This document shows, in pieces, positions 2,492 to 23,928 of a stretch of 36,018 nt of DNA. The translations under genes were made by a program, and so were the position numbers. Below the pieces are notes generated by a model that was not told the origin of the DNA, ran no database searches, and was given only the letters and a program-made list of their open reading frames with translations. Numbering within the stretch: the stretch's first letter is position 1; each line of letters starts with the position of its first letter. Origin of the DNA: Gammaproteobacteria bacterium. Its GTDB lineage: Bacteria > Pseudomonadota > Gammaproteobacteria > SZUA-140. The DNA lies in the NCBI GenBank assembly GCA_021648525.1, contig JAKISP010000041.1:1-36018 (forward strand), given 5' to 3'.

Positions 2492-2580
2492 TGTTTAAAA
2501 AATAATAAAAAATTAAAGTGCCCCCTTTGTTTGGCAGGGTGGGTACATGGATAGTCGCTAACAATAAAAAGGGTATGGAT

Positions 2581-5091
2581 ATGAGAAACGATCCTGTATG
2601 TGGCATGAGTGTCACGGAAGACTCAAAACATTCTGCTGAACACCAGGGGCAACATTATTATTTTTGCAGTGTGGGGTGTTTGAGCAAATTCACCGCCTCT
2701 CCCGAGCAGTATTTGGCAAAAGAGAAGAGTGAAGAAAAAGGTGGTTGCTGTTGTAGTAGTAAAAAACCGAGTGAGCCGAAGCCAGCAGAAAAATCGCATA
2801 GTTGCTGTGACGACAAACCTCACCACCATCACGTGGAAAAAAAGCCGGACCAGCCCGTGGATGAGTCGGCGATCTACACCTGCCCAATGCATCCTGAAAT
2901 AGAGCAGCAAGGCCCTGGTAGCTGCCCTGAATGTGGTATGGCGTTAGAGTCAAAAGGGGTTCCGCTGGTCGCTACTAAAATACAGTACACCTGCCCCATG
3001 CACCCGGAAATTATTCAGGATCACCCCGGTTCATGTCCTAAATGTGGCATGGCGCTGGAGGCGATGACGGTCGCGGTGGATGAGGACACTAGCGAACTGG
3101 ATGATATGACGCGCCGCTTTAAAATCGGTGCGCTATTTGCTGCTCCTGTTTTTTTCAGCGCGATGGCCGCTGAATTCTGGCCAGAGGCGATGGCTGGATT
3201 GATCGATCCCAATCTGCGTCAGTGGCTTGAGATGATTCTGTCGGCGCCGGTGGTGATCTGGTGCGGCTGGATATTCTATGAGCGTGCGATCCAGTCAGTG
3301 GTTAATCGCAGCCTCAATATGTTTACCCTGATTGGACTGGGCGTTTCGGTTGCCTGGAGCTACAGTGTTATCGCCACGGTGTTTCCCGCTATTTTCCCAC
3401 CGGAGGTGTTTAATAAGGTGGGTGTTGTGCCGGCCTATTTTGAGGCCGCTGCGGTGATTACTGTGTTGATATTATTGGGCCAGATGCTGGAGTTACGGGC
3501 GCGTAGTCAGACCAATGCGGCGATCAAACTCCTGCTCGGCCTGGCCCCTAAGACTGCCCGCATTGTGCGTGACGACGGTACTGAAGAAGATATCCCGATG
3601 GAGCATGTGGAGGTGGGCGATACCTTGCGAGTACGCCCGGGTGAAAAGATCCCTGTTGATGGCACCACCATTGACGGCGAAAGTAATGTTGATGAATCGA
3701 TGGTTACCGGTGAACCACTACCTGTAGCCAAAACAGCCGGTGAGCGGCTGATCGGTGCCACGGTCAACGGTACAGGAGGGCTGTTGATGCGAGCTGAAAA
3801 AGTGGGCTCAGATACCCTGCTATCACAGATAGTCAATATGGTTGCCGAGGCTCAACGTTCCCGTGCACCGATACAAAGACTGGTTGATACAGTTTCCGGT
3901 TATTTTGTCCCGGTTGTGGTGGTGGTAGCGGTTATCACCTTTATTATCTGGAGCCTGTGGGGGCCAGAACCGGCTATCGCCTATGCTGTTATCAATGCTG
4001 TTGCGGTACTCATTATTGCCTGCCCTTGTGCGTTGGGGCTGGCGACACCGATGTCGATCATGGTCGGTACGGGTAAAGGTGCCATGATGGGGGTGTTGTT
4101 TAAAAATGCCGAAGCGCTGGAAGTGCTGCGTAAGGTTGATACGTTAGTGGTTGATAAAACCGGTACCCTCACCGAAGGAAAACCAAAACTGGTTTCAGTT
4201 TTTGCCAACGACAGTTTTGAAGAAAACGATAACCTGCGTTTAGCTGCCAGTCTCGAACGAGCCAGCGAACATCCACTGGCCGAAGCGATTGTGCAAGGTG
4301 CGCAAGCGCGTGGCGTGGAATTGGCTCAGACCAAAGACTTTCAATCTGTCACCGGCATGGGTGTCACCGGCAGCGTTGAGGGTCGTAAGGTGGCACTGGG
4401 CAATATTAAATTGCTGCAGAGTCTCGGTATCGATGCCGGTGGCTTGCCACAGCAGGCGGACAGTCAACGTGCTGAAGGTCAGACCGTGATGTTACTGGCA
4501 ATTGATGGCAAAGCCGCTGGACTAATCGGCGTTGCCGACCCTATCAAAGAGACCACCCCGGAAGCGATTCGTGATCTGCACGGCGAAGGGATCAAGATTG
4601 TGATGCTCACGGGTGATAGCCGTAAGACCGCCGAAGCAGTGGCGGCCAGGCTCGATATTGATCAGGTGCATGCTGAAGTATTGCCAGAGCAAAAAGCCGA
4701 AGTGGTCAAACAGCTTCAGGCAGAGGGGCATATCGTTGCCATGGCGGGTGATGGTATTAACGACGCACCTGCTTTGGCACAGGCTCATGTCGGCATTGCC
4801 ATGGGTACTGGCACCGATGTAGCCATGGAGAGTGCTGGTGTGACACTGGTCAAAGGTGATCTGCGCGGTATCGTGCGGGCAAGGCGCCTGAGTCGCGCCA
4901 CCATGCGCAATATTCGCCAGAACCTTTTCTTTGCTTTTATCTATAACGCTGCTGGGGTGCCGGTTGCGGCGGGGATACTTTACCCCGTATTTGGCTTGTT
5001 GCTTTCCCCTATTATTGCGGCAGCGGCGATGGGGTTTAGTTCCGTGTCAGTGATAACCAATGCGCTGAGATTAAAGAGAGTAAAACTGTAG
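2581..5091 (+). CDS. Cu(I)/Ag(I) P1B-type ATPase with YHS and two HMBD domains
   Basis: This 836-residue inner-membrane pump uses ATP to export monovalent copper or silver. It begins with a YHS domain (NDPVCGM, residues 1-45), followed by a Cys cluster (GGCCCSS), a His run, and two HMBD units (about 99-123 and 136-160, each CPMHPE...GSCPxCGM). The ATPase core shows the phosphatase TGE motif, the membrane metal site CPC (481-483), the phosphorylation motif DKTGTLT with Asp525, the SEHPLAEA signature and GDGINDAP. No classical HMA domain is present; YHS and HMBD replace it. I chose ATG 2581 because GGGT sits six bases before it; ATG 2575 has no room for a binding site. It is preceded by the Met-rich protein gene. 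Confidence 0.95.
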
Positions 5092-9053: not shown

Positions 9054-9347
9054 ATGATCAAAATAAAAAATGGGAAAACATTGCTGTCTATCGCACTGCT
9101 CTTCAGCATGGCATCGTTCACGGTGGCAGCTGAACTGGCGGGTGAAGCACTTTTTAAAAAGAAGTGTTCTCTATGCCATTCTATAGAGAAAAAGAAACTC
9201 GGTCCTGCGATTAAAACCATGAGCAGCGAAGCGGAAACTTTGCGTGCAGTCATCTTGAAAGGGAAGGGAATGATGCCTGGATTTGATGGAAAATTGACGA
9301 GTGCGCAGATCGATTCGCTGGTTGAATATCTGTTAGTAAACCAATAG
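9054..9347 (+). CDS. Small periplasmic cytochrome c
   Basis: The 97-residue product has a signal peptide (cut near VAA-EL) and one haem c site, CSLCH (Cys38, Cys41, His42). A Met pair at 73-74 in KGMMPGF could give the sixth ligand, and the terminal helix SLVEYLLVNQ fits a class I monohaem cytochrome. AAGGAG lies before ATG 9054. It sits directly upstream of the haem-porin gene and probably passes electrons in the periplasm, perhaps with that protein. Confidence 0.9.
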   Translation: MIKIKNGKTLLSIALLFSMASFTVAAELAGEALFKKKCSLCHSIEKKKLGPAIKTMSSEAETLRAVILKGKGMMPGFDGKLTSAQIDSLVEYLLVNQ

Positions 9348-9358
9348 GAGGGTTAGAC

Positions 9359-10549
9359 GTGAAAAATACTTACCACAATATAGAGTCCGTTGGCGTATCA
9401 AGGCGACCAGACACTGCTGTGATCTCTCTGGTATTGTTGATTATTGGCGTATTTTTTATTAACACCGCGCAGGCTGTTCCTGCCTTTGCGCGACAACATC
9501 AAACTGAATGCAGCAGCTGTCACAGTGCATGGCCGGCCTTGAATGCCACTGGGCGTATGTTCAAAGAGAGTGGTTATCGTTTCTCCAGAGACGAACAGCC
9601 AGGCTTTATGAACTGGGCTCAAGCCTTGCCAGTGAGCGCAATGATCAAGGCACGCCCCTATGAAAAAAGTGATAACGGAGATAAAAAACTACGGGCATTG
9701 CATGAAGTTGAAGTGATGGTTGCCGGAGCAATGGCCAACAATTTTTCTGGCTGGTTTGAACTAGAGGCCGAGGATGATGCGGGTTTTGATGTTGAAGTGA
9801 AGTCTGCCGCGCTTGGATACCACCCCAGCAAAGCCGTTAACCTGCGGGTCTCCTGGGGGGCTATCACAGGTAGCGACCCTTATGATGTCTATAGCAATGC
9901 CCGCAAACTGACCCGTAATCGTGCATCAGTGATTAATCAGCGATTTGGTGGTGCAGATGCGGGTGGACGTTTGCGCGATGCACGACAAAACATCACCCTC
10001 TACGGTCGTCCGGTTGACAAAATTTTTTACAGCCTGGGGATAAGTGGTGTTAAAGGCGATACTGAAGGTGAAGACAGTGATGCGCTGACCGCCCGTCTGG
10101 CGATGGATATTACACAGGAGATCATGGTTGGATTGATGACCATTAACGGGACTTGCAAAGCGACAAATACGAGCTGTGCTGTTGATCGTGACTTTAGCCG
10201 TACCGGTGTTGATGCCCAGGCCGATATCGGCAGTATCCGCCTGATGGGGGCGTTATTAAAAACTACCGACGACAATAGCATGGCAACGGTAGAAGAAGAT
10301 AACAATGCCATTTATGTTGAAGCTCGCTATACCTTCTCAGAAGGTGGACGTCCTACCTTCGTGCCATTGGTGCGTCTGGATAGTTACGAGAAAAATAACG
10401 GACAGGATGATTATGATGAGATTACGCTGCAAGCGGGTTACTATTTTACAGAAAATGCACGTGGTTTTATCGAGTACCTGGATGTGAGTGGTCCGACGTC
10501 AGCTAACGATGACAGTCTACTAACACTGCAAGTCGACATAGGCTTCTAA
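9359..10549 (+). CDS. Cyc2-like outer-membrane cytochrome-porin fusion
   Basis: The 396-residue product has a long signal sequence (cut near NTAQA), then VPAFARQHQTECSSCH with one CxxCH site (Cys51, Cys54, His55), followed by FKESGYRF. The remaining 330 residues show alternating polar/apolar strands and end in DIGF, a C-terminal Phe typical of outer-membrane barrels. A monohaem N-terminus plus a barrel is the layout of Cyc2, an outer-membrane electron conduit in iron oxidisers. The start is a GTG with AGGAGG upstream. It follows a small cytochrome c. The fold is inferred from pattern only; the electron donor or acceptor is unknown. Confidence 0.65.
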   Translation: MKNTYHNIESVGVSRRPDTAVISLVLLIIGVFFINTAQAVPAFARQHQTECSSCHSAWPALNATGRMFKESGYRFSRDEQPGFMNWAQALPVSAMIKARPYEKSDNGDKKLRALHEVEVMVAGAMANNFSGWFELEAEDDAGFDVEVKSAALGYHPSKAVNLRVSWGAITGSDPYDVYSNARKLTRNRASVINQRFGGADAGGRLRDARQNITLYGRPVDKIFYSLGISGVKGDTEGEDSDALTARLAMDITQEIMVGLMTINGTCKATNTSCAVDRDFSRTGVDAQADIGSIRLMGALLKTTDDNSMATVEEDNNAIYVEARYTFSEGGRPTFVPLVRLDSYEKNNGQDDYDEITLQAGYYFTENARGFIEYLDVSGPTSANDDSLLTLQVDIGF

Positions 10550-10657: not shown

Positions 10658-11416
10658 ATGTTAGCGAAGCAGCGTGAAAAAATAGAGTCATGTTCAGGTG
10701 TTTGGTGTCGTTTTCACGATAGCCACCCGGAATATCTGGCGCGCCACTACTGGTGGGCTTACCTGTGGCGCTGGGGAGTCTGGTTTTTTGACCATCAACC
10801 GATCATCAATGCCATTCTTTTTGGTCAGTACAGGAGACTCTCCCAACGGGCGTTGCATGATTGTATGAGGGAGCGGCCAGAAGGGCGGATGTTACAGCTC
10901 ACCTGTGCTTACGGTAGCATGACGCCTTCGTTGCTCAAGGTGATGGACGATGAACTCTATCTGATGGATGTGGCGGAGATACAGCTCAGTGCCACCCGTA
11001 AAAAACTGACCGACGTGGATAACAAACGCCTGCTTTGCGCGCGCATGAACGCGGAGTCTCTTGCCTATGCTGACGATGCGTTTGCCACAGTTTTGATCTT
11101 TTTTCTACTGCATGAATTGCCGCCTGATGCACGGGAACGGACTATTAGCGAAGCGATACGAGTACTGCGACCTGGCGGCCGTTTTGTGATTACCGAGTAT
11201 GGGGCTTGCCCTGAAAAAAATCTGCTATGGCGGTTACCACTAACGCGTTTCATGTTACAGCGACTGGAACCATTTTTAGCGAGTTATTGGCAGGTGGATC
11301 TGCTTGCCATATTGGACAGGTATGCACGCACAGAAGGCAAGTTGATTCGGCAGGTGGATGAATTCCACTGCTTTGCTGATTTCTATCGCGTCTCTGTTTT
11401 TGAATTAGAGCAATAG
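10658..11416 (+). CDS. rquA: RquA-like rhodoquinone biosynthesis enzyme
   Basis: The 252-residue protein resembles RquA, which converts ubiquinone to rhodoquinone using S-adenosylmethionine as amino donor. Diagnostic features are HYWWAYLWRWGVWFFDHQ near residue 30, ILFGQYRRL with Tyr58, and a changed SAM motif (LQLTCAYGSMTP) in place of the usual E/DxGxGxG. Later motifs are LLHELPPDARERT and RVLRPGGRFVITEYG. Asp104 (LMDVAE) and Asp140 resemble acidic residues conserved in RquA. The start ATG 10658 has GGGGA upstream; the GTG at 10586 would add 24 residues. It lies between the cytochrome-porin gene and a membrane cytochrome gene. UbiE/UbiG-type methyltransferase is the alternative, but the degenerate motif I argues against it. 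Confidence 0.78.
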   Translation: MLAKQREKIESCSGVWCRFHDSHPEYLARHYWWAYLWRWGVWFFDHQPIINAILFGQYRRLSQRALHDCMRERPEGRMLQLTCAYGSMTPSLLKVMDDELYLMDVAEIQLSATRKKLTDVDNKRLLCARMNAESLAYADDAFATVLIFFLLHELPPDARERTISEAIRVLRPGGRFVITEYGACPEKNLLWRLPLTRFMLQRLEPFLASYWQVDLLAILDRYARTEGKLIRQVDEFHCFADFYRVSVFELEQ

Positions 11417-11430
11417 CGGGAGTCGCAATA

Positions 11431-12198
11431 ATGAATAAAAAAAACCAACCTGAAACATGTCCTACTATTGTGCCGAGGCACTTTTATAACTGCACCTTGA
11501 ACGAAAAGCTTTTATACACCTCCTTTTTGTTGTTGGCGGGGCTCGCCTACCTGATGGCGCTAACCTATCTCTATACTAGTTTCGAAGGGATTGATGGCGA
11601 ACCAGGACTGTCGGTTGAAGATGTTGCCGAGAACTACTATGGCAATCGCAGCGGTACACGATTGGAGTCGGCTCTGCGCGGCCCAATGGCTGGTTATATT
11701 GATACTGAGCATCGCAACCATATTGTTGAATGGCTGAAATCGGGTGCGCCAGAGTCGGACTATGTACGCCTTATTAAACCGATGCTTGATGAGAACTGTA
11801 TCGTTTGTCATAGCGAGGCTTCTGGCCTGCAGATTCCAGATCTTTCCAGTTATGAAGGAGTCAAGCAGGTGGCTAATATCGATACCGGTGTCTCGCTACA
11901 CAGCTTGATTAAGGTGTCGCATATCCACCTGTTTGGCATTGGTCTGGTTGCACTCTGCATTGGCTTGATATTTCGTTTCGCACTACTGCCTGGCTGGTTT
12001 CAGAATACGCTGACATTATTGCCATTCGTCGCTATTTTTGTCGATATTTCCGCCTGGTTTCTCACCAAATGGGATCCGACCTATGCCTATACCGTGATCA
12101 TTGCTGGTGGCCTGCTAGGGTTGTCGTGGGCGTTGCAGATTCTCATTTCTCTCTATCAAATCTGGTTCTTGCGCTGTCGAGTAAAACCACCTGTTTAA
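11431..12198 (+). CDS. Membrane-bound monohaem cytochrome c protein
   Basis: The 255-residue protein has one N-terminal transmembrane helix (about 30-50), a periplasmic domain with a single haem c motif CIVCH (Cys123, Cys126, His127), and three or more C-terminal helices (from about 165 on). The segment KVSHIHLFGIG carries two His that could serve as haem or metal ligands near the membrane. I do not recognise a named family; similar proteins are often annotated only as cytochrome c domain proteins. It follows rquA at 14 bp and precedes the 2-oxoacid oxidoreductase genes. A role in quinol-linked electron transfer is possible, but no reaction is shown by sequence. Confidence 0.75.
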   Translation: MNKKNQPETCPTIVPRHFYNCTLNEKLLYTSFLLLAGLAYLMALTYLYTSFEGIDGEPGLSVEDVAENYYGNRSGTRLESALRGPMAGYIDTEHRNHIVEWLKSGAPESDYVRLIKPMLDENCIVCHSEASGLQIPDLSSYEGVKQVANIDTGVSLHSLIKVSHIHLFGIGLVALCIGLIFRFALLPGWFQNTLTLLPFVAIFVDISAWFLTKWDPTYAYTVIIAGGLLGLSWALQILISLYQIWFLRCRVKPPV

Positions 12199-12219: not shown

Positions 12220-12801
12220 ATGACCATGGAAAATAAAAAAGTAACAGACTTGCGTGACATCCGTTTACACGGCCGCGGCGGTCAGGGCACCGTCTCTGCT
12301 GCTGCATTGCTGGCGCTTGCTGCGTTTGAAGATGGCTTTGAAAGTCAGGCGTTTCCAAAGTTTGGTTCTGAGCGGCGTGGTGCGCCGGTAGAAGCCTATG
12401 TGCGCATTAGCCACACCGTTATTCGTGCTCATAATCAGCTCTACAGACCTGATGCGGTGGTGATTCAAGATGCCGGCCTGCTGCGCTCAGAACCGTTGCT
12501 AGAGGGGTTAACCCCAGGTGGACTTATCGTATTGAACGCTGCTGAAAAACCTGAGGGTATTGATGACGATTTTCGCTGGGTCTGCCTGCCCGCGAGCCAG
12601 ATTGGTGAGCGCCATATTGGCCGCCCTTTGCCAAATACTGTTTTATTAGGTGCGTTGGCGGCGGCGACAGAGTGGGTGAGTCTGACGGCACTGGAGCAGG
12701 CGATAAGCAACCATCTTGCAAGCAAAGGTGAGGCAGTCGTGAAAGCGAATATTGAAGCGGTGCGTGAAGGTTATGAGCTCTCTAAACCTAATCCCCCCTA
12801 G
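12220..12801 (+). CDS. 2-oxoacid:acceptor oxidoreductase gamma subunit
   Basis: This 193-residue protein has the gamma-domain signature HGRGGQGTVSAA and FPKFGSERRGAPVEAY. The complex oxidises a 2-oxoacid with CoA to acyl-CoA, CO2 and reduced ferredoxin. The best-supported start is ATG 12220 with GAGGAGAAGG upstream. Its last codons (Pro-Pro) and stop TAG lie inside a CCCCCC/GGGGGG repeat element (12790-12825), so its C-terminus seems to have been trimmed or extended by that insertion. The alpha subunit gene starts 157 bp later, beyond a second copy of the element. Substrate (pyruvate, 2-oxoglutarate, phenylglyoxylate or other) is not decided by this subunit. Confidence 0.92.
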   Translation: MTMENKKVTDLRDIRLHGRGGQGTVSAAALLALAAFEDGFESQAFPKFGSERRGAPVEAYVRISHTVIRAHNQLYRPDAVVIQDAGLLRSEPLLEGLTPGGLIVLNAAEKPEGIDDDFRWVCLPASQIGERHIGRPLPNTVLLGALAAATEWVSLTALEQAISNHLASKGEAVVKANIEAVREGYELSKPNPP

Positions 12802-12825
12802 CCCCCCTTTGTTAAAGGGGGGGCT
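12790..12825. repeat. C-rich/G-rich palindromic repeat, copy 1
   Basis: AATCCCCCC is followed by a hairpin: AGCCCCCCTTT (12800-12810), loop GTT, AAAGGGGGGGCT (12814-12825). It contains the stop of the gamma subunit gene. It is related in opposite orientation to the element at 12891-12925 and in direct orientation to 16747-16785. Such CCCCCTTTG...AAAGGGGG elements occur widely as REP-like repeats. Confidence 0.75.
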
Positions 12826-12890
12826 GGTGGGTTAGCGGTGTTTTTTACCTTTCCCTTTGAGCAGGCGGGGGATTGGAGGTATTTTCTTTA

Positions 12891-12925
12891 CTTCCCCCTT
12901 TGAAAAAGGGGGATTGAGGGGGATT
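12891..12925. repeat. C-rich/G-rich palindromic repeat, copy 2 (inverted)
   Basis: The core hairpin is TCCCCCTTT, loop GAA, AAAGGGGGA (12893-12913), followed by TTGAGGGGGATT. Read on the minus strand it has the same order as copy 1, so the two copies face each other and bound a 136-bp segment, as a paired REP/MITE-like unit would. Confidence 0.75.
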
Positions 12926-12957
12926 GAATTTTGGAATTAAATAAAAGAGGTGGCAGC

Positions 12958-14151
12958 ATGAAACAACTCCTGGAAGGTTCACTGGCCGTAGCTGAGGCAG
13001 TGCGCTTGTGCCTGCCGCAGGTGGTGGCGGCCTATCCCATCACGCCGCAGACACACATCATCGAACGATTGGCTCAGCATGTGGCTAACGGTGAACTGGA
13101 GGCCGAGTTTATTAACGCTGAGAGTGAATTTGGTGCGGCTTCCATTGTGTTAGGCGCAGTGGCTGCCGGGGCGAGATCGTTTACTGCGACTGCTTCGCAA
13201 GGCTTGTTGCTAATGACAGAAGTGCTCTACAACATCGCCGGACTACGACTGCCGGTGGTGATGATTTGCGCCAACCGAGCGGTGGGTGCACCGATCAACA
13301 TTTTCAGTGACCACCAGGACAGCATGTCGGTACGCGATGCCGGTTGGGTTCAGCTCTATGTTGAGACCAATCAGGAAGCGGTAGATACCTTGATTCAGGC
13401 CTATCGCATTGCCGAGGCGTGTGGCCTGCCAGTGATGGTCTGTATGGATGGCTTTTTACTGACGCATACTTTTGAACCAGTGGATCTGCCAACACAAGCG
13501 ATGGTGGATGGTTTTCTGCCGCCCTTTCAATTTTCTCGTACCCTCGACCCAGTCCGTCCGATGACATTGGGCGGCGCTAGCGAAGCGGATAACTTTCAGG
13601 AATATCGCGCCGCCCAGCAGGCAGCAATGGAAGATGCGATGCCGGTGATCGAGGCATTTGATGCTGAATTTAACGAGCAGTTTGGCCGTGAACATGGAGG
13701 ATTGCTTCAACCCTGCCATCTGGATGGAGCAGAGACCGTGTTGCTGGGTATGGGTTCGCTGATGGGTGTGGTGCGCGATGTGGTCGATAAACTGCGTGAT
13801 CAGGGGCAGGCGGTGGGCGCGCTACGGCTGCGCTGTTTTCGCCCTTTTCCCGCTCAGGCGCTGGCGCGCTATCTGGCGTCTGCGAAGCGAATTATCGTGC
13901 TGGAGAAAGCAATTAGCATTGGTGCGGGCGGTATTGTTGCGGCCGAGCTGCGAGCCGCCTTGCATCAAGCGGGCATCACGACGCCAGTGGAAAGTGTGAT
14001 TGGTGGTTTGGGCGGGCGTGACTTGACCCCGGATGTGATCGAAGCGCTTTTTCAGAAATCGAGTGAGAATGAAGCAGGTGCAACTTTTCGGTTTGCGCCC
14101 GACCACAAATCCCTTACCAGGCAAAATGAGGAGGCCATGAATAATGGATAA
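12958..14151 (+). CDS. 2-oxoacid:acceptor oxidoreductase alpha subunit
   Basis: The 397-residue protein has the pyrimidine-domain features of the family: AAYPITPQTHIIERLA, FINAESEFGAAS, TATASQGLLLMTE, and a C-terminal domain with LGMGSLMG. It pairs with the beta subunit to hold thiamine diphosphate. ATG 12958 with AGAGGTGG upstream is preferred over the TTG at 12931. The stop overlaps the beta gene by eight bases. Order gamma-alpha-beta-GltD-like resembles the multi-subunit pyruvate and phenylglyoxylate oxidoreductases. The substrate remains open. Confidence 0.94.
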   Translation: MKQLLEGSLAVAEAVRLCLPQVVAAYPITPQTHIIERLAQHVANGELEAEFINAESEFGAASIVLGAVAAGARSFTATASQGLLLMTEVLYNIAGLRLPVVMICANRAVGAPINIFSDHQDSMSVRDAGWVQLYVETNQEAVDTLIQAYRIAEACGLPVMVCMDGFLLTHTFEPVDLPTQAMVDGFLPPFQFSRTLDPVRPMTLGGASEADNFQEYRAAQQAAMEDAMPVIEAFDAEFNEQFGREHGGLLQPCHLDGAETVLLGMGSLMGVVRDVVDKLRDQGQAVGALRLRCFRPFPAQALARYLASAKRIIVLEKAISIGAGGIVAAELRAALHQAGITTPVESVIGGLGGRDLTPDVIEALFQKSSENEAGATFRFAPDHKSLTRQNEEAMNNG

Positions 14152-15130
14152 TCGAGACCCTTTTCGCTATAACGTGTTGACCTCTGGTCATCGCGCCTGT
14201 TCTGGTTGCGGTGAGGCGATGGCGGCGCGGATGGTGACTGACCTGGTTGGCCCCGATGCGATCTACATTAACGCCACTGGCTGCCTGCAAGTTTTTACCA
14301 GTCACAATCAGCAGTCTGCCTGGCAGGCACCGTGGATTCATTCGGTCTTCGCCAATGCGGCTGCCGTGGCTTCGGGTGTTGAGGCTGCATTACGTATCAA
14401 AGGCAAAGAGACTCCCGTCGTAGTGCAAGCTGGTGACGGCGGAACATTCGACATCGGTTTGCAATGTCTCTCCGGCATGATTGAGCGTGGCCACGATGTA
14501 CTGTTTGTCTGCTATGACAACGAGGCCTATATGAACACTGGGGTGCAGCGTTCCGGCTCCACCCCCCATGCAGTGCGCACCAGCACCTCACCACCGGGTC
14601 AGTTTAGCCAGGGCAAGCAGGAACTGAAAAAAGATGTGATCTCGATTATCGCGGCTCACAACATGCCTTACGCAGCCACGGCCACGATTGCCTACTTTCC
14701 TGATCTCAAAGCCAAAGTCGAGAAGGCGATGCGCATTAAGGGGCCGCGTTTTCTGCAAATTTTATCGCCCTGCCCTTTGGGTTGGGCGCATGACAGCGCG
14801 TTGTCGGTAAGCGTCTCGCGATTGGCAGTGGAGACGGGGTTATTTCCATTGGTGGAGCTGGAGCATGGTGAACTCACTGGGGTGATGCGTCTGGCCGAGC
14901 AGAAACCCGTGGAGGAATACTTACGCCCACAGGGGCGCTTCAAACACCTGTTTGCTAACAAAGCGGGCGGGGTAGAGTTACGCCACCTGCAAGCGCTGGC
15001 CGATGCACGTATTCGCCGTTATGACCTGCTCAATGTCGATACGCAGTGGGACACCGAAACGGCGATGCAAAGCGAGCGTCACGGCCGGGGTGGGTACACC
15101 GTTTCATCTGCAGTCAGGGAGGTGAAATAA
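14144..15130 (+). CDS. 2-oxoacid:acceptor oxidoreductase beta subunit
   Basis: The 328-residue protein carries the thiamine-diphosphate/Mg binding motif QAGDGGTFDIG with the downstream YDNEAYMNTG segment, and an N-terminal SGHRACSGCGEAMAAR motif plus a later Cys (ATGCLQV), the typical cluster ligands of the beta subunit. LSPCPLGWAH near residue 210 fits the pyruvate-type family. It overlaps the alpha gene by eight bases, and the fused GltD-like subunit follows after two bases. Substrate not defined. Confidence 0.94.
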   Translation: MDNRDPFRYNVLTSGHRACSGCGEAMAARMVTDLVGPDAIYINATGCLQVFTSHNQQSAWQAPWIHSVFANAAAVASGVEAALRIKGKETPVVVQAGDGGTFDIGLQCLSGMIERGHDVLFVCYDNEAYMNTGVQRSGSTPHAVRTSTSPPGQFSQGKQELKKDVISIIAAHNMPYAATATIAYFPDLKAKVEKAMRIKGPRFLQILSPCPLGWAHDSALSVSVSRLAVETGLFPLVELEHGELTGVMRLAEQKPVEEYLRPQGRFKHLFANKAGGVELRHLQALADARIRRYDLLNVDTQWDTETAMQSERHGRGGYTVSSAVREVK

Positions 15131-15132
15131 TC

Positions 15133-16770
15133 ATGGCTAATCTCGAAATCGAACCCGGCAGTAGTACTGCTTATCACACGGGTGACTGGTCTATCGAGCA
15201 ACCTGTTTACCTCGACAAATGGCCACCCTGTAGTCAGGTCTGTCCCGCCTCGGAAGATATTCAGGCATGGCTGGCGCTGGCGAGTGAAAAGCGGTGGCAA
15301 GCTGCCTGGCGAAAACTCACCGAGCGCAACCCGTTTCCGGCCACCATGGGACGCATCTGTTATCACGCCTGTGAATCGGCCTGTAACCGCAACCATCTCG
15401 ATAGCGCCGTCAATATCCATGCGATAGAGCGTTATCTCGGTGACATGGCGATTGCTCAGGGCTGGCAGCATGAATCGGTTGATGCTCAACCGCAAACCCA
15501 GAGCGTGGCGATTGTGGGTGCGGGGCCGGCGGGACTTTCTTGTGCCTTCCAACTGGCACGGCACGGCTATTCGGTCACTATTTTCGACGCGCAAGATGCG
15601 CCTGGCGGCACATTGCATAGCGCCGTGCCGAATTATCGCTTGCCCAGCTCGGTGTTAGCCAAAGAGATCGATGCGATTCTTGATCTGGGAATAACACTAC
15701 ACCTCAATACTCGTGTGAATGAAGATGAACTGCATGACCAGTTTGATCTGGTTTTTCTTGCTATCGGTACGCAGCAGCCGCGTCAATATCGCGGGGATAG
15801 CTCTAATCACAGCGTCATGAGTGGTCTTGATTTTCTTCGTTGCCTCAATCGTGGTGAGCCGGTATCACTGCCTAAACAAGTCGCGATAATTGGTGGTGGT
15901 AACACGGCTATTGATGTGGCGCGTTGCGTTCGTCGTTTGGGAGCTAGCGCTGTAGTGGTTTGCGCACAAGACCCGCACGGTAGTCATCACCGTGACCTGG
16001 CGACAGAGATGCCCGCATCGTTAACGGAAGTCATTGAAGCCGAAGCTGAGGGAGTGCAGTTAATCTATCGTGCTGGCGTGCGTCACCTGGTGCGCAGTGG
16101 CGAGCACTTGTCCGGTGTTGAAATAGCACATGTGGAACATGTGCATGATAGGAAGGGTAATTTCAATCCCCGATTTTTTGACGGCACCGAAGAGTTTATC
16201 GCCGCAGGTCTGGTGATCTTTGCTATTGGCCAGAAGGCTGACTGGCAGGGACTAGAAGGGATGAGTCAAGCCAACGAATCAGAGGGTGTGTGGGTGGGTG
16301 GTGATGCGGTGAGCAAGTCAAAACTGGCAGCGACAGCGGTGGGCAGTGGGTATCAGGCTGCGATGTCGATGATGGCGAATTTGAGCGGAGAAATCTCGGT
16401 TTATCAGGATCATAAAAAGTCAAAAGTTGCTTATCGACAGATGCAGTTGCATTACTACCCCAGGCAGCCACGTTGCGAAGGTGAAAGCCTTGAGCAGCGA
16501 CTTGATGGGTTTAATGAAGTTGTCACCGGGCTGGCTGATGATGATGCGGTGTCGGAAGCAAAGCGCTGCTTGAGTTGTGGTGTCTGTTTTGAGTGTGACA
16601 ACTGCTGGCACTTCTGTCCCGACGCGGCGGTGATCAAAAAAGAGGGTGGTTACACCATTGATTATGACTACTGCAAGGGGTGTGGGATTTGCGCGCAGGA
16701 GTGTCCTTGTGGGCATATTGATATGGTGGGGCGGAGTTCAGAATCTAAATCTCCCCAGACCTCCCTTTAA
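15133..16770 (+). CDS. GltD-like FAD/NAD(P)H oxidoreductase fused to 2x[4Fe-4S] ferredoxin
   Basis: The 545-residue protein has an N-terminal Cys-rich domain (PPCSQVCPASED, RICYHACESACNRNH), the FAD motif IVGAGPAGLSCA (about 125-136), the NAD(P) motif IIGGGNTAIDVARC, and a C-terminal ferredoxin domain with CGVCFECDNCWHFCP and CKGCGICAQECPCG. This resembles the small subunit of glutamate synthase joined to a PorD-type delta subunit. It probably passes electrons between the oxoacid complex and NAD(P)H. I chose ATG 15133 with GGAGGTGA upstream. Its last residues and TAA stop lie in a REP-like repeat (16747-16785). A PadH-type NADH-coupled role (phenylglyoxylate oxidoreductase) is an alternative. 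Confidence 0.92.
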   Translation: MANLEIEPGSSTAYHTGDWSIEQPVYLDKWPPCSQVCPASEDIQAWLALASEKRWQAAWRKLTERNPFPATMGRICYHACESACNRNHLDSAVNIHAIERYLGDMAIAQGWQHESVDAQPQTQSVAIVGAGPAGLSCAFQLARHGYSVTIFDAQDAPGGTLHSAVPNYRLPSSVLAKEIDAILDLGITLHLNTRVNEDELHDQFDLVFLAIGTQQPRQYRGDSSNHSVMSGLDFLRCLNRGEPVSLPKQVAIIGGGNTAIDVARCVRRLGASAVVVCAQDPHGSHHRDLATEMPASLTEVIEAEAEGVQLIYRAGVRHLVRSGEHLSGVEIAHVEHVHDRKGNFNPRFFDGTEEFIAAGLVIFAIGQKADWQGLEGMSQANESEGVWVGGDAVSKSKLAATAVGSGYQAAMSMMANLSGEISVYQDHKKSKVAYRQMQLHYYPRQPRCEGESLEQRLDGFNEVVTGLADDDAVSEAKRCLSCGVCFECDNCWHFCPDAAVIKKEGGYTIDYDYCKGCGICAQECPCGHIDMVGRSSESKSPQTSL

Positions 16771-16943: not shown

Positions 16944-18077
16944 ATGACAAATACTGAACTCCCGATAGAAATCGCCGGTGCGGGGCCTGCCGGTTTAGCT
17001 GCTGCCATTACCCTTGCTCATGCTGGGCGCAAGGTCATCGTGCATGAAACGCAAAAAGAGGTCGGTCACCGTTTTGGCGGTGATTTCCAGGGGATAGAGA
17101 ACTGGACTAGTGAGGAAGACGCATTAAGTGTGTTAGAAAACCAGGGTATCACAACAGAGTTTAACAAGATGCCCTGTCGTAATGGCACCGTGTTTGACCC
17201 GAATGATAAACGTTATGAAATTAGTAGTGACGAGATTCTATTTTACATCGTAGAGCGGGGGCCTGGCCCTGGCTCACTGGATAGTGCGCTACTCAAACAG
17301 GCGCAATCACTGGGTGTGGAGGTGCGTTTCAATAGTCGTCTGCGCCACATGGCGGGCGACGGCATCCTGGCAGCGGGGCCACGTGCCGCCGATGCAATCG
17401 CTGTGGGTTATCACTTTGAAACGGATATGGCGGATGGTTACTGGGCCATCTGCGACGATGCACTTGCGCCAGAAGGTTACGCCTATCTGTTAGTAATGAA
17501 TGGCAAGGGGACGATTAAAACCTGCATGTTTTCCGGTTTCAAGCAGGAGAAGATTTATGTAAAACGCACGCTGGAGGCGTTTCAACGGCTGGTTGGACTG
17601 GAGATGAAAAACCCTCAGCCGCACGGTGGTAGTGGCAACTTTCGTATACCGGACAGTGCTTATAGCGGCCCCCATCCGCTGGTGGGAGAGCAGGCTGGTT
17701 TTCAGGATACGCTGTGGGGATTCGGCATGCGTCTGGCGATCTCGTCTGGTGTGCTGGCGGCGCAAAGTCTGTTGTCGGGTGAAAACTACGACAAACTTTG
17801 GCAGCGTGATCTGAAACCGCAGATGGAAACCGCCGTGGTCAATCGGGCGTTATATAGTTTGTCGGGAAGCCGTGGGTATAGCTGGTTTTTGGGGCAGCTT
17901 GTCTCTCGACAGAACCTGCGCAAGGCACTACGCCAACAATATCAATCCTCCTGGCCCAAGCGTCTGTTGGGACCGTGGGCCAGGCGTCGCTATAAAAGCC
18001 GCCGCAAAGATATCACCTGTGATCACATCGACTGCCACTGCATCTGGTGTCGGGGGGAGTGTTGTGTTCATGACTAA
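16944..18077 (+). CDS. Geranylgeranyl-reductase-like FAD oxidoreductase with Cys-rich tail
   Basis: The 377-residue protein begins with an FAD Rossmann motif, IAGAGPAGLAAAITLA, and its body (GHRFGGDFQGIENW, the PLVGEQAGFQDTLWGFGMR segment) fits the geranylgeranyl reductase/FixC group of flavoproteins, which reduce isoprenoid double bonds or act in quinone and lipid chemistry. A C-terminal tail holds six Cys in 16 residues (CDHIDCHCIWCRGECC), which is not part of the usual fold and may bind a metal or cluster. The gene overlaps the outer-membrane channel gene by eight bases. Substrate is unknown. Confidence 0.75.
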   Translation: MTNTELPIEIAGAGPAGLAAAITLAHAGRKVIVHETQKEVGHRFGGDFQGIENWTSEEDALSVLENQGITTEFNKMPCRNGTVFDPNDKRYEISSDEILFYIVERGPGPGSLDSALLKQAQSLGVEVRFNSRLRHMAGDGILAAGPRAADAIAVGYHFETDMADGYWAICDDALAPEGYAYLLVMNGKGTIKTCMFSGFKQEKIYVKRTLEAFQRLVGLEMKNPQPHGGSGNFRIPDSAYSGPHPLVGEQAGFQDTLWGFGMRLAISSGVLAAQSLLSGENYDKLWQRDLKPQMETAVVNRALYSLSGSRGYSWFLGQLVSRQNLRKALRQQYQSSWPKRLLGPWARRRYKSRRKDITCDHIDCHCIWCRGECCVHD

Positions 18078-19365
18078 TGGGGCGCGACCGGTGAAAAGAG
18101 TGCGCGAGTGGTGGCTTGCCACGGCTCTGTTGTGTGTCAGCGCACCGCTTCATGCAGAGCCGTTGTTGATCGAAACCGCTGTGACCGAGGTGATAGAGGC
18201 CAATCCGGATCTGGCGGCCATTAGTGCCCGAGCCGAAGCACTGGCAGCACTGCCAGAGCAACTGGGCTCGCTGCCTGACCCCTGGTTGTCACTTAAATTG
18301 ATGAATCTTCCCATCGATAGCTTCTCTTTCTCTCAGGAGGGGATGACTCAGACCCAGCTGGGTTTTAGCCAGATGTTGCCCTTTCCCGGCAAGCTCGGGC
18401 TACAACAGGAAGCCGCGCAGGCGATGGCAAATGCGGCTGGTTTTGGTGTCGAGGAGCTACGCCTGACGTTGGTTCGGGATGTGAAAATAGTCTGGTGGAA
18501 CCTCTTTTTTCTCGACCGTGCGCTGGAGGTAGTCACAAACAATCAGACCTTGATGCGCCAGTTTATCGAAGTGGCTGAGAGCAAATACAGCGTCGGCAAA
18601 GGGTTGCAGCAAGATGTGTTGTTGGCGCAACTGGAACTCTCCAAACTGTTCGACAATCAGGTGGATCTTGAGGGCAAGCGGCGCAATGAGTCTATTCGTC
18701 TCAACACGCTGCTTGATCGTCCGGTAACAACGCGGTTAGTGCTGCCGAGTGAGGTGGTGGAGAATCTTCCAGTGATGCGTGATGAGGTGCAACTGGTGGC
18801 ACAGGCGGCTGCGCTTCGCCCCATGCTGGGTGCTCGACAACAGCGACTACAAGCGGCACGGTTACGGCTCGAGCTGGCGGAAAAAAATTACTACCCCGAT
18901 TTCAGCATCGGCGCAGCGTATGGCCTGCGTCAGGGCGATAACCCCAACGGCTCCAGCCGTGATGATCTGGTTTCGCTGATGTTTGGCATGAGCCTGCCTA
19001 TCTATAGCGGAACCAGACAGGATCGCGCCGTGGATCAGCGCAATGCCGAGCGAATGGGGCAACGTTATGCGTTGGCCGATGCCCACAATCGGGTCGAGGC
19101 AGCCATCGGCCGCGCCTTGTCTGATTATCAGCGTGGTCGGGAGAAGGTCGTGTTATTTAAAACGGGGATTATTCCTCAGGCCCGGCAGACGGTCTCTTCC
19201 ATGCTGGCGGGCTATCAGGTCAACAAGGTCGATTTTCTCAATGTGATGCGCGCCCAGATCACGCTTTATAACTATGAAACCCAATACTGGAGCGCCTTCA
19301 GCAGGGCCCGTCAGGCAATCGCCCGACTGATTGCAGCTGTGGGAGAGGAGCATGTTTATGAGTAA
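18070..19365 (+). CDS. cusC: CusC-like outer-membrane efflux channel (TolC family)
   Basis: The 431-residue protein is an outer-membrane factor of a tripartite efflux pump. It has a signal sequence after a basic start (ending near LHAEP) and helical repeats of the OEP family, including LGFSQMLPFPGKLGL, characteristic of metal-efflux members, and YPDFSIGAAYGLRQG. Start ATG 18070 lies 10 bases after a G-rich site and overlaps the flavoprotein gene; GTG 18091 is an alternative. It overlaps the adaptor gene by eight bases, so cusC, cusB and cusA form one unit. Confidence 0.9.
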   Translation: MTNGARPVKRVREWWLATALLCVSAPLHAEPLLIETAVTEVIEANPDLAAISARAEALAALPEQLGSLPDPWLSLKLMNLPIDSFSFSQEGMTQTQLGFSQMLPFPGKLGLQQEAAQAMANAAGFGVEELRLTLVRDVKIVWWNLFFLDRALEVVTNNQTLMRQFIEVAESKYSVGKGLQQDVLLAQLELSKLFDNQVDLEGKRRNESIRLNTLLDRPVTTRLVLPSEVVENLPVMRDEVQLVAQAAALRPMLGARQQRLQAARLRLELAEKNYYPDFSIGAAYGLRQGDNPNGSSRDDLVSLMFGMSLPIYSGTRQDRAVDQRNAERMGQRYALADAHNRVEAAIGRALSDYQRGREKVVLFKTGIIPQARQTVSSMLAGYQVNKVDFLNVMRAQITLYNYETQYWSAFSRARQAIARLIAAVGEEHVYE

Positions 19366-20746
19366 TCAAATTAACTTGATGGCGATGAGTGTGGCGTTGG
19401 TAGTGGGCCTCGGCGGTGGTTATCTGTTGTTTGGTGGTGCTGAACCGCAGCCCGGTAGCAGCACGCCGAATCAGACGGTTGCTGAGCGTAAACCGCTCTT
19501 TTATCGCAATGCCATGAACCCCACTGTCACCTCGCCGATACCAGCCAGGGACAACATGGGAATGGACTATATCCCGATCTATGCAGATGACCTGGGTGAT
19601 AACGATGCCCCGGCCGGGACGGTCAAAATCGATGCGGCAACGGTACAGAACATTGGGGTGCGCACTGCGATTGCTGAAGAGGGGCCGTTATCACGCACCG
19701 TGCGGGCGGTCGGCCGAGTCGATTTCGATGAGACCCAGTTAGCTAAAATTTACCCCAAAATCGACGGTTGGGTGGAGACCCTGGCGGTGGACAAAACCGG
19801 TGCCCAGGTGAAAAAAGGCGATGTATTGCTGAGCATCTACTCACCCCAGCTGGTTGCCAGTCAGGAGGAGTATCTGCTGGCACTTAAAAATCGCAGGACG
19901 CTAGCCCAAAGCCCACTGGAAGATATTCGTCGTGGTGCAGAGAGTCTGGTGAAGTCGGCGCGGCTGCGGCTGGAGCTGCTCGATATGCCGGAGCACCAGA
20001 TCGAAGCGCTGGAGCAGAGTGGAGAGATTTACCGGGCGACCCATATTCATTCCCCATTCAATGGTGTGGTGATCAAGATGGGGGTGCAGGCGGGGCAATA
20101 TGTGACGCGGAAGAGTCAGCTCTACCAGGTGGCCGATCTTTCCAGGGTATGGGTCTATGCCGAGGTATTTGAGTTTGAACTGCCGTGGATTAATGAAAAT
20201 GACCCGGCACAGATCACTGTCGAAGGAGTGCCGGGGCGCGAGTTTCATGGCCACATCAGTTACATCTACCCCTATCTCGACCGCAAGGCACGTACCGCCA
20301 GGGTGCGACTGGAGTTTGATAACCGTGATGGCGCATTGCTGCCGGAGATGTTCGCCAACGTTATTTTGAAGAGCGCTCGTAGTGAACCGGCCGTGCTGGT
20401 GCCCGCCCAGGCGGTTGTCCGTTCCGGTACGCGCAAGCATGTGTTTGTGGTGCGCGAACCGGGAAAATTTGAGCCGCGTGAAGTGGTGGTGGGTGTGACA
20501 AGCGAAGGCAGGAGCCAGATTCTGGAAGGGATCAAGGCGGGCGAGGAGGTGGTGATCTCCGCCCAGTTCCTCATCGACTCTGAATCATCACTGCGCGAAG
20601 CCACTGCGAAGATGATGGCTGGCGCGAAAAAAAATGTGCCGGAAGCGACCCGGGCTGAAATGGAGATGCCCGGCGCACCGGATCAGACTATTGACAAAGG
20701 CGAGATGGGTGGAATGGAGATGGCACCTGAGAGCAGACAGCCATGA
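19358..20746 (+). CDS. cusB: CusB-like periplasmic adaptor of metal RND pump
   Basis: The 462-residue adaptor has an N-terminal hydrophobic anchor, then a degenerate heavy-metal-binding motif (FYRNAMNP ... DNMGMDYIPIY) of the CusB type, a lipoyl/barrel-sandwich region (VDKTGAQVKKGDVLLSIYSP), a helical hairpin and the beta-barrel domain. The C-terminus is Met-rich (EMEMPG, GEMGGMEMAP), which may add metal sites. AGAGGAG lies seven bases before ATG 19358; ATG 19352 is too close to it. It overlaps cusC and cusA (ATGA), so production of the pump parts is coupled. Confidence 0.93.
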   Translation: MSNQINLMAMSVALVVGLGGGYLLFGGAEPQPGSSTPNQTVAERKPLFYRNAMNPTVTSPIPARDNMGMDYIPIYADDLGDNDAPAGTVKIDAATVQNIGVRTAIAEEGPLSRTVRAVGRVDFDETQLAKIYPKIDGWVETLAVDKTGAQVKKGDVLLSIYSPQLVASQEEYLLALKNRRTLAQSPLEDIRRGAESLVKSARLRLELLDMPEHQIEALEQSGEIYRATHIHSPFNGVVIKMGVQAGQYVTRKSQLYQVADLSRVWVYAEVFEFELPWINENDPAQITVEGVPGREFHGHISYIYPYLDRKARTARVRLEFDNRDGALLPEMFANVILKSARSEPAVLVPAQAVVRSGTRKHVFVVREPGKFEPREVVVGVTSEGRSQILEGIKAGEEVVISAQFLIDSESSLREATAKMMAGAKKNVPEATRAEMEMPGAPDQTIDKGEMGGMEMAPESRQP

Positions 20747-23700
20747 TCGAACGCATTATCGAGTTTTCGATACGCAAAAAATTTCTGGTGATGATCGCCA
20801 CATTTTTGATTGTGGTGGGTGGTCTGTGGGCGGTAAAAACCACGCCGCTGGATGCGATTCCTGACCTCTCTGACGTTCAGGTAATTGTCTTTACCGAATA
20901 CCAGGGACAGGCACCGCAGGTGGTTGAAGATCAGGTGACCTACCCGCTGACGACGGCGATGCTCTCCGTACCCAGGACGAGTGTGGTGCGTGGCTACTCC
21001 TTTTTTGGCCTCTCTTTTGTCTACATCATTTTTGAAGATGGCACCGATATGTACTGGGCGCGCTCGCGGGTACTGGAGGCGCTCAACTACGTGGGGGATC
21101 GTCTGCCTGAGGGTACCAACCCGGCACTTGGCCCTGATGCTACTGGCGTGGGCTGGATTTACGAGTACGCGCTGGTCGATAAAACCGGCCGACATGATCT
21201 TTCCCAGCTGCGTTCGATTCAGGACTGGTATCTGCGCTATCCACTACAGACCGTGCCGGGGGTGGCCGAAGTGGCTGCGCTGGGCGGTTTTGTGAAGCAG
21301 TATCAGGTGGTGGTCGATCCCAATGCCCTGATGTCCTACGGCATCCCGCTATCAAAAGTAAAACATGCGATTAAAACCTCGAATAATGACGTGGGCGGTA
21401 AGTTGATCGAAATGTCGGAGACCGAATATATGGTGCGGGGTCGAGGCTACATTCGCAGTATCGAAGACATCAATGATATTCCCGTCGGTGCCAATGCCGA
21501 TGGCACCCCGATTCGCATCGAAGATATTGCCCATGTCCATATCGGCCCTGAGTTGCGCCGTGGTCTGGCGGAGCTAGATGGTGAGGGTGAGGTGGTGGGT
21601 GGTATCGTCATTATGCGTTTTGGCGAAAACGCTCTGGCGACCATCGAAGGGGTGCGGGCGAAACTGGCGGAGCTGAGCAAGGGATTGCCCGAAGGGGTGG
21701 AGATCGTCACTACCTACGACCGAGGGGCGCTCATCGAGCGGGCGGTGGACAATCTAACCGAAAAGTTGATGGAGGAATTTTTGGTGGTCAGCCTGGTCTG
21801 CATCATCTTCCTGATGCATGCCCGTTCGGCGCTGGTGGCGATTGTTGCGCTGCCGATTGGTATTTTACTGGCCTTTTTGGCGATGCGCTGGCAGGGGCTT
21901 AATGCCAACATCATGTCACTTGGGGGGATCGCCATCACCATTGGTGCGATGGTGGATGGCGCCATCGTGATGATCGAAAACGCGCACAAACATCTGGAGC
22001 AGGCCGGGCGTAAAAAAGGGGCGGAACTGAATACTCGGGAGCGTTGGGCTGCCACCACTGCCGCAGCCAAAGAGGTGGGGCCGGCGCTGTTCTTCTCGTT
22101 GTTGATTATCACCGTATCCTATCTGTCGATCTTTTCGCTGCAAGGGCAAGAAGGCCGCCTGTTTTCACCATTAGCCTTCACCAGTACCTATTCCATGGCC
22201 GCCGCCGCGCTAATCGCAGTGACCCTGGTGCCACTGCTGATGGGGTGGTTTATTCGCGGCAAGATCATGCCTGAGGCGAAAAATCCGGTAAACCGTCTGC
22301 TGCATTTTCTTCATACACCGGCCCTGAGAGCCGCCATGAACTGGCGCAATATCACGCTGGTTGGTGCGGTGGTGTTGCTGGCGGCAACCTGGTATCCATT
22401 GTCGAAACTGGGCAGCGAATTTATGCCACCACTGGATGAGGGGGATGTGCTCTATATGCCCACCACCTTCCCGGGCATCTCCATCACCAAGGCGAAGGAG
22501 CTGTTGCAACAGACCGACAAGATCCTCAAAACTTTCCCTGAGGCACAGACGGTGTTTGGCAAAGTGGGGCGCGCTGAAACCGCCACTGATCCTGCAGCGC
22601 TGTCGATGATGGAGACCATCGTGCGCCTCAAATCGCGAGAGGAGTGGCCTGATCCCGATAAAAAGATGCAGACCTTGATGAACGAGATGGACAAGGCGAT
22701 CCGCTTCCCCGGTCTGGCCAACGCATGGACGATGCCGATCAAGACCCGCATCGACATGCTCTCCACCGGCATCAAGACACCGATCGGTATCAAGGTCAGT
22801 GGGCCTGATCTGCAAGTGCTGGCTCGTCTTTCTGAAGAGATCGAACGCGCCATGAAGACCATCCCCGATACCCTGTCGGCATTTGGTGATCGTGCCGTGG
22901 GCGGTTATTTCATCGACTTTGATATTGACCGCAAAAAAGCAGCACGTTATGGCCTGACGGTGGGGGATGTGCAGCAGGCGATCACTACTGCGGTGGGTGG
23001 TATGAACGTCACCTACACCGTGGAGGGGCTGGAGCGTTATCCGGTCAACCTGCGTTATCCGCGTGAACTGCGCGACTCGCCGGAGAGTCTGGCGCGGATG
23101 CTGATTCCTACGCCGAGTGGGGCGCAGATTCCGTTGGCGCAGGTGGCAGCGATTGTAGAGCGCCGTGGTGCGCCCGTCATCAAGAGCGAAAATGCAACGC
23201 CCAACGCCTGGATCTACGTCGACATAAAGAGTTCCGATATCGGTGGTTACGTGGCGCAGGCCAAAGAGGTGATGGCTGAGCAAGTGGAGATTCCCCCAGG
23301 CTACACCGTTGTCTGGTCAGGTCAGTTTGAGTATATGGAGCGTGCGGCTAAACGTCTGCAAGTGGTGGTGCCCGCGACCTTGCTGCTGATCTTCCTGCTA
23401 CTCTATTTCAATTTCGGCAACATCAGTGCGCCCATAGTGGTGCTGCTGTCGGTTCCGTTTGCGATGGTGGGCGGTATCTGGTTGATCTATTGGTACGGCT
23501 TCAATATGTCCGTGGCAGTGGCGGTCGGTTTTATTGCCCTGGCTGGGGTCGCGGCGGAGATTGGGGTGCTGGTGCTTACCTTTATCGACCAGGAGGTGGC
23601 GCGGCGGCGGCAGGAAAAGGGAGCGAAAGACCGGGACCGATTTGCCGTGTTGACCCCTGCTGAAATTTTAGAGGGTGTGCGAGTGGGTACCTCGGAGCGG

Positions 23701-23928
23701 GTGCGGCCGATCGTTATGACGGCCGTGGCGGTAATTGCCGGTCTGCTGCCCATTATGCTGGGCAGCGGTACAGGATCTGAAGTGATGCAGCGCATTGCCG
23801 CACCGATGGTGGGCGGTATGGTGACCACAACCCTGTTATCACTGGTGGTGTTGCCGGTGATTTATGGGCTGGTGTTACAGACCAAAGAGCGCATGCATCA
23901 ACGGGAAAAAGAGACGCAAAAGAGTTGA
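20743..23928 (+). CDS. cusA: CusA-like Cu(I)/Ag(I) RND efflux pump
   Basis: The 1061-residue inner-membrane pump has the RND layout: TM1, a large periplasmic loop, TM2-6, a second loop and TM7-12. Transmembrane helix 4 holds the proton-relay motif GAMVDGAIVMIENAHK. The periplasmic part contains TDPAALSMMETIV and WTMPIKTRIDMLSTGIKTPIG, where the Cu/Ag-type (HME4) pumps keep Met ligands. It exports monovalent metal using the proton gradient, with CusB and CusC. It overlaps cusB by four bases. A PII-like gene follows at 57 bp. Confidence 0.95.
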   Translation: MIERIIEFSIRKKFLVMIATFLIVVGGLWAVKTTPLDAIPDLSDVQVIVFTEYQGQAPQVVEDQVTYPLTTAMLSVPRTSVVRGYSFFGLSFVYIIFEDGTDMYWARSRVLEALNYVGDRLPEGTNPALGPDATGVGWIYEYALVDKTGRHDLSQLRSIQDWYLRYPLQTVPGVAEVAALGGFVKQYQVVVDPNALMSYGIPLSKVKHAIKTSNNDVGGKLIEMSETEYMVRGRGYIRSIEDINDIPVGANADGTPIRIEDIAHVHIGPELRRGLAELDGEGEVVGGIVIMRFGENALATIEGVRAKLAELSKGLPEGVEIVTTYDRGALIERAVDNLTEKLMEEFLVVSLVCIIFLMHARSALVAIVALPIGILLAFLAMRWQGLNANIMSLGGIAITIGAMVDGAIVMIENAHKHLEQAGRKKGAELNTRERWAATTAAAKEVGPALFFSLLIITVSYLSIFSLQGQEGRLFSPLAFTSTYSMAAAALIAVTLVPLLMGWFIRGKIMPEAKNPVNRLLHFLHTPALRAAMNWRNITLVGAVVLLAATWYPLSKLGSEFMPPLDEGDVLYMPTTFPGISITKAKELLQQTDKILKTFPEAQTVFGKVGRAETATDPAALSMMETIVRLKSREEWPDPDKKMQTLMNEMDKAIRFPGLANAWTMPIKTRIDMLSTGIKTPIGIKVSGPDLQVLARLSEEIERAMKTIPDTLSAFGDRAVGGYFIDFDIDRKKAARYGLTVGDVQQAITTAVGGMNVTYTVEGLERYPVNLRYPRELRDSPESLARMLIPTPSGAQIPLAQVAAIVERRGAPVIKSENATPNAWIYVDIKSSDIGGYVAQAKEVMAEQVEIPPGYTVVWSGQFEYMERAAKRLQVVVPATLLLIFLLLYFNFGNISAPIVVLLSVPFAMVGGIWLIYWYGFNMSVAVAVGFIALAGVAAEIGVLVLTFIDQEVARRRQEKGAKDRDRFAVLTPAEILEGVRVGTSERVRPIVMTAVAVIAGLLPIMLGSGTGSEVMQRIAAPMVGGMVTTTLLSLVVLPVIYGLVLQTKERMHQREKETQKS

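Follow-up and report, generated by a model that had tools for sequence, protein, structure and literature searches.

A divergent RquA-like gene among cytochrome genes in a gammaproteobacterium belongs to a branch enriched in iron-oxidising lineages

Introduction

Rhodoquinone, rare among bacteria, is known from fumarate respiration under hypoxia. A gammaproteobacterial contig (JAKISP010000041.1, assembly GCA_021648525.1), of which a stretch of 36,018 nucleotides was analysed here (the window), carries at 10658-11416 a gene that a first-pass annotation read as RquA-like. From this it was supposed that the cell makes rhodoquinone, a low-potential quinone used to reduce fumarate anaerobically, and the place of the gene between c-type cytochromes and a 2-oxoacid oxidoreductase was taken to suggest an anaerobic or microaerobic electron route. 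The locus thus raises the question of which quinone, if any, the encoded enzyme would make, and for which respiratory chain.

RquA from R. rubrum acts on ubiquinone in vitro, exchanging one of the ring methoxy groups for an amino group taken from SAM (PMC9814641), and RquA genes usually lie near respiratory genes (PMC5953543). The RquA list of Stairs et al. covers alpha-, beta- and gammaproteobacteria and CPR, with no Zetaproteobacteria (PMC5953543), and in a survey of Pseudomonadota most carriers of rhodoquinone genes were Alphaproteobacteria, Betaproteobacteria or Magnetococcia, with one gammaproteobacterium (PMC11707229). A 2026 survey raised the number of orders with such genes to 24 (PMC13386864).

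Results

The gene, on the forward strand at 10658-11416, encodes 252 amino acids from an ATG at 10658; an alternative in-frame GTG at 10586 would give a 276-residue version. It is intact, and since dN is 0.09-0.14 and dS 1.0-2.0 against close relatives (dN/dS about 0.05-0.14) the protein is under purifying selection. The AlphaFold model (pLDDT 92.9) has, with high confidence, the fold of a class I SAM methyltransferase. The structural neighbours of this predicted model, namely NodS, PEMT (PE N-methyltransferase) and yeast Coq5, reach Z scores of about 19-21 with no clear winner and indicate the fold, not the substrate. A sequence search of the PDB returned weak methyltransferase matches only, and a search of plasmid records weak general methyltransferase matches only.

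The protein scored 169.7 bits against the NCBIfam RquA model NF038261, about 5 bits under its curated cut-off of 175, and 46.3 bits against the UbiE/MenG model TIGR01934, for which the cut-off is 158. The UbiE motif I (D...GTG) is absent, and LQLTCAYG stands in its place. According to the published criterion that separates RquA from methyltransferases, a glutamine replaces the Asp/Glu of motif I and a valine replaces the Gly (PMC7813818). The glutamine (Q80) is present in our protein and in all 81 aligned rows of the divergent branch of the family to which it belongs (clade 2); at the valine position 64 of the 81 rows have Val, and our protein has Ala, not Gly. Membership in the RquA family, and not in UbiE or UbiG, is thus supported by sequence comparison, and to that extent the first-pass assignment was upheld.

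It could be argued that the gene encodes a SAM-dependent methyltransferase without any role in quinone metabolism, which stands among cytochromes by chance. The structural neighbours are indeed general small-molecule methyltransferases, and in most distant relatives the gene is found at varied, unlinked places. However, the RquA match lies far above those to other methyltransferase models, the motif I change drops residues that ordinary methyltransferases keep (PMC7813818), and carriers are concentrated in lithotroph lineages, so that we consider this explanation highly improbable.

When 398 Pseudomonadota genomes were searched with the RquA model, the scores were bimodal: 44 genomes scored 279-317 bits, 31 genomes including the window's own scored 155-186 (the range of full matches; one of the 31 is a contig-end fragment at 92 bits), and one more scored 225. 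The curated cut-off cuts through the lower-scoring group, clade 2, with members on either side. In a tree of 72 proteins, built without a UbiE outgroup, clade 2 and ordinary RquA lie on opposite sides of a long 100/100 branch, with our protein on the clade-2 side. Its score just under the cut-off is explained by its belonging to this separate branch. In this tree the protein falls outside ordinary RquA. Rooting both branches on the genome's own UbiE was rejected as unreliable, the outgroup branch having a length of 10. Two lone intermediates were also seen, L115 (genome G003; 225 bits), with canonical-type residues, and L116 (G423; 183 bits), which falls in clade 2 although its Asp180 and Leu242 are those of canonical RquA. 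Our search of the RquA literature found no clade-2 member reported as tested; a divergent rquA from Desulfobacterota, which may lie inside or outside clade 2, did not lead to rhodoquinone formation in E. coli (PMC13386864).

The protein shares 32-37% identity with canonical RquA rows (alignment A1), rising to about 42% over local segments. At about 45 positions both groups have the same residue in 85% or more of their members; among these are YWWAY, LQ..C.YG, D104, Q109-L110, FFL.HE.P, LEPF and W211. From ordinary RquA to clade 2, nearly all rows differ (query numbering) by R46H, W48P, W55F, N57Q, F58Y, A82T, Q130M, D131N, S132A, D180E, Y192R, A207L, L242F and Q244R; the fixed differences include ones in the SAM loop, the N-terminal helices and the last strands. 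The SAM loop reads RMNAE in clade 2, near the QANAE of UbiE and unlike the QDS of RquA. The R. rubrum D118A/D143A double mutant is inactive (PMC9814641). The Asp equivalent to D118 is kept as D104, and the equivalent of D143 is N131, with Asn in 76 of 80 clade-2 rows and Asp in four; this equivalence was counted by hand on L085 from the 25-residue spacing to the D118 equivalent, the R. rubrum sequence lying outside the alignment. Only 1 of 28 ordinary RquA rows has Asn at this position. Since the genome's own UbiE and L088, an otherwise ordinary RquA of 312 bits, both carry Asn there, an inactive protein cannot be predicted from D131N by itself, and a simple argument from Asp-to-Asn to an inactive enzyme was rejected.

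The fixed N131, taken with the substrate-region differences, could nevertheless mean that a different substrate or reaction applies. The enzyme might modify a quinone yet not make rhodoquinone: it could transfer a methyl group, for instance, or act on another ring position or on an intermediate, which would be a new activity. Such a product would suit the UbiE-like RMNAE loop, the fixed residues H46, P48, F55, Q57, Y58, E180, R192, L207, F242 and R244, and the long branch of the 100/100 split. It would sit less easily with a motif I that is retained with Q80 in place of D/E, and with the Asn that the ordinary-scoring L088 also has at the 131 equivalent. We regard this outcome as conceivable but rather unlikely.

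All neighbours considered here are on the forward strand. Upstream lie a small monoheme cytochrome c of 97 aa (9054-9347; PF13442/PF00034), also found upstream of the rquA-like gene in nine other loci (L005, L007, L008, L009, L017, L036, L117-L119), and a candidate Cyc2-like fused cytochrome-porin (9359-10549). Downstream, a membrane-bound monoheme cytochrome c (11431-12198; CIVCH at residue 123, four hydrophobic stretches; no match in Pfam, NCBIfam or the PDB) starts 14 bp past the rquA-like stop and is kept as a close neighbour in most near relatives; because of this short gap the two genes are likely co-transcribed. A 2-oxoacid:acceptor oxidoreductase set follows at 12220-16770, with gamma (PorC type, 12220-12801; TIGR02175, 179.8 bits, above cut-off), alpha (PorA type, 12931-14151; NF040682, 471.8 bits) and TPP-binding beta subunits (PorB type, 14144-15130; NF008819, 358.8 bits; PF02775) and a GltD-like NAD(P)-binding flavoprotein with a PorD-like ferredoxin C-terminus (15046-16770; NF009410, 532 bits, above cut-off; PorD matches at 510-561). 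The position between c-type cytochromes and a 2-oxoacid oxidoreductase, as first described, was therefore confirmed. Close relatives show a recurring order of small cytochrome c, sometimes the Cyc2-like gene, the rquA-like gene and the membrane cytochrome c, followed in many by the PorC, PorA, PorB and GltD-like genes. In Gallionellaceae the gene lies in the argS/dsbA region, and in Zetaproteobacteria at various loci. The idea that every carrier has the gene in a tight operon together with iron genes was rejected, as loci vary outside the Tenderia-like gammaproteobacteria.

Several other features of the window were recorded. The region is flanked by a copper-type P-ATPase with YHS and HMBD domains (2518-5091) and a full RND metal-type efflux set (17872-23928; OEP, CusB-like, AcrB-like), and a MerR regulator lies at 1590-2003. 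Within a complex I-like cluster at 28409-35035 (nuoA, H, J, K, L), an 851-aa forward-strand ORF (28880-31435) starts with a weakly NuoB-like part, continues with seven HMBD repeats of the heavy-metal-binding type (YxCxMHPEV...CPKCGM) and has a NuoD-like end. Such a NuoBD protein with metal-binding repeats is an odd combination; a similar 849-aa gene (56% identity) adjoins nuoA and the rquA-like gene in L075. In a Mariprofundus MAG (L068:8919-12278) the rquA-like gene is upstream of napF-, napD- and napA-like genes, which may hint at a nitrate-linked use in some carriers.

A scan for carriers, with one genome per species, retained 80 loci. By record title, 18 belong to Gallionellaceae or Nitrosomonadales (Sideroxydans, Gallionella, Ferrigenium), 16 to Zetaproteobacteria (Mariprofundus, Ghiorsea and others), five to alphaproteobacteria and 41 to other gammaproteobacteria, a group that includes Candidatus Tenderia and many MAGs from vents or sediments. 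Three of the carriers (L056, L062, L083) are recorded as Mariprofundus and seem to be isolates. The named carriers are mainly from Fe(II)-oxidiser lineages (Gallionellaceae, Mariprofundaceae/Ghiorsea, Tenderia-like gammaproteobacteria). In the Pseudomonadota sample, canonical RquA and clade 2 occur in different genomes. Our literature search found no paper linking rhodoquinone to Mariprofundus; a paper matching rhodoquinone and "iron-oxidizing" notes an rquA gene in a thiotrophic symbiont. Some clade-2 genes may be counted in the 2026 survey (PMC13386864).

The Cyc2 motif comprises AXPXFAR[Q/K][T/Y] upstream of CXXCH, PXL downstream and a length of more than 365 aa (PMC8406198). The protein encoded at 9359-10549 (396 aa; AVPAFARQH...CSSCH...PAL), which had no Pfam or PDB match, has AXPXFARQ, CSSCH and PAL, and its sole mismatch to this consensus is a His for Thr/Tyr. 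In the phylum sample the motif was present in 0/44 canonical RquA genomes and in 27/31 clade-2 genomes, the latter mostly from one family (Mariprofundaceae); an exact-match pattern and missing contigs can give false negatives in such counts. Of the clade-2 genomes outside Zetaproteobacteria, 19/40 had the motif, compared with 13/324 sampled genomes outside Mariprofundaceae (Fisher p 9e-13, a value that ignores relatedness). Among clade-2 carriers it was found in 10/10 Zetaproteobacteria, 10/12 Gallionellaceae-like genomes and 0/5 alphaproteobacteria. Clade 2 is enriched in iron oxidisers and is not confined to them. An iron-specific reading was weakened by the fact that about half of the carriers outside Zetaproteobacteria have no exact Cyc2 motif, and an iron-specific role is not general because many carriers, including all five alphaproteobacteria examined, are without it. 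Nor is the gene needed for iron oxidation, since in Mariprofundaceae (family code f40) it is present in 29/74 genomes and the Cyc2 motif in 64/74.

The genome of the window (3.36 Mb, 76 contigs, 99.9% complete) encodes UbiA (344 bits) and, on another contig, UbiE (272 bits), both above cut-off, as well as RuBisCO and one strong SDH-type complex II flavoprotein (804 bits). A profile search of the genome found no Peptidase_U32 protein, and therefore no UbiU or UbiV by that model; an oxygen-independent ubiquinone route was reported in 73 of 84 published RquA genomes (PMC11707229). The gene content fits ubiquinone made with oxygen together with CO2 fixation, and RuBisCO and the Cyc2-type motif make the organism look like a microaerobic CO2-fixing lithotroph. 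Elsewhere in the genome (G000:C46:56819-60573 onwards; L169, L170) a NadB-like flavoprotein, an SdhB/TfrB-like iron-sulfur protein, an FrdA-like flavoprotein and a NuoF-like gene stand in a row, possibly encoding a soluble NADH-linked fumarate reductase. A search for a membrane-type fumarate reductase beyond SDH found none in the genome.

These data bear on the ordinary RquA role, in which rhodoquinone would serve anaerobic fumarate respiration via complex II. That role is favoured by the RquA-family match, by the SDH-type flavoprotein and by the FrdA/SdhB-like pair, which looks soluble and adjoins a NuoF-like gene. But a strictly anaerobic fumarate respiration is a poor fit to a genome with UbiA, UbiE, SDH and RuBisCO and with no UbiU/UbiV homologue, in which no membrane-type fumarate reductase was found beyond SDH; moreover, no genome of the sample has both canonical RquA and clade 2, and the 44 canonical genomes lack the Cyc2 motif throughout. 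We judge this role to be improbable here. Of the first-pass proposal, the tie to the rhodoquinone enzyme family is supported and the idea of a microaerobic route fits, whereas fumarate respiration fits poorly, and with the fixed SAM- and substrate-region changes even the step to rhodoquinone is a supposition.

Discussion

We somewhat favor the interpretation that the gene encodes an RquA-type SAM-dependent enzyme acting on ubiquinone, whose product, either rhodoquinone or a closely related aminoquinone, would be used in a microaerobic lithotrophic chain. The interpretation is supported by the RquA score compared with that for UbiE, Q80, the positions shared with ordinary RquA, the presence of UbiA and UbiE, the neighbouring cytochromes, RuBisCO and the Cyc2 enrichment. 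According to this interpretation the enzyme would bind SAM at the membrane via the altered motif I and, by homology, swap a ring methoxy group of ubiquinone for an amino group taken from SAM, the product being rhodoquinone or a close aminoquinone. More tentatively, the low-potential quinone might serve the uphill (reverse) branch from cytochromes through complex I to NAD+, a role suggested by thermodynamics and distribution. In iron oxidisers electrons must take an uphill way to NAD+ (PMC8788666), and a quinone about 160 mV below ubiquinone (values in PMC6529003 and PMC13386864) would lessen the quinol-to-NAD+ step and shift work to the bc1-type step.

A broader hypothesis, which we put forward as a speculation with the odds against it, is that neutrophilic Fe(II) oxidisers and related lithotrophs from at least three proteobacterial classes have a previously unrecognised third type of RquA. 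Its product in microoxic surroundings, rhodoquinone or else a novel aminoquinone, would provide a second quinone pool, of low potential, for the uphill NADH and CO2-fixation branch. Rhodoquinone is not known to be used in the iron- and mineral-oxidising bacteria where clade 2 concentrates. The presence of a separate branch of RquA in Mariprofundus micogutta and Gallionellaceae would imply either a further function of rhodoquinone, in aerobic or microaerobic lithotrophy, or a different quinone yet to be discovered. Clade 2 also concerns the way in which iron oxidisers drive electrons uphill to NADH. There is also a practical consequence, in that the NCBI cut-off splits clade 2 and some members would be named rhodoquinone enzymes, and others not, from score alone.

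Compared with known systems, the Cyc2-like candidate shares the N-terminal AXPXFARQ, CXXCH, PXL, single heme and length of more than 365 aa with the Cyc2 iron-oxidase family (PMC8406198), but has His where the Cyc2 consensus has Thr/Tyr. UbiE and Coq5 have the class I SAM fold in common with our protein (Coq5 4obw, Z 19.6, rmsd 2.6, 199 residues aligned), and the N-A-E loop of UbiE resembles the one in clade 2; however, the match to the UbiE model is weak and the UbiE motif I is missing. The closest known system is RquA itself (R. rubrum Q2RPC3, NF038261; groups A and B, PMC5953543), which agrees with our protein in fold and length, in the motif I glutamine with LQxxCxYG, in the D118 equivalent and in the FFLxHExP, YWWAY and LEPF blocks. 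Ordinary RquA proteins score about 300 bits and nearly all have the Asp of D143, whereas ours scores 170 bits, has Asn instead and carries fixed differences near the substrate and SAM regions, and clade 2 as a whole is concentrated in lithotroph lineages that include the Zetaproteobacteria, a class absent from the list of Stairs et al. 2018 (PMC5953543).
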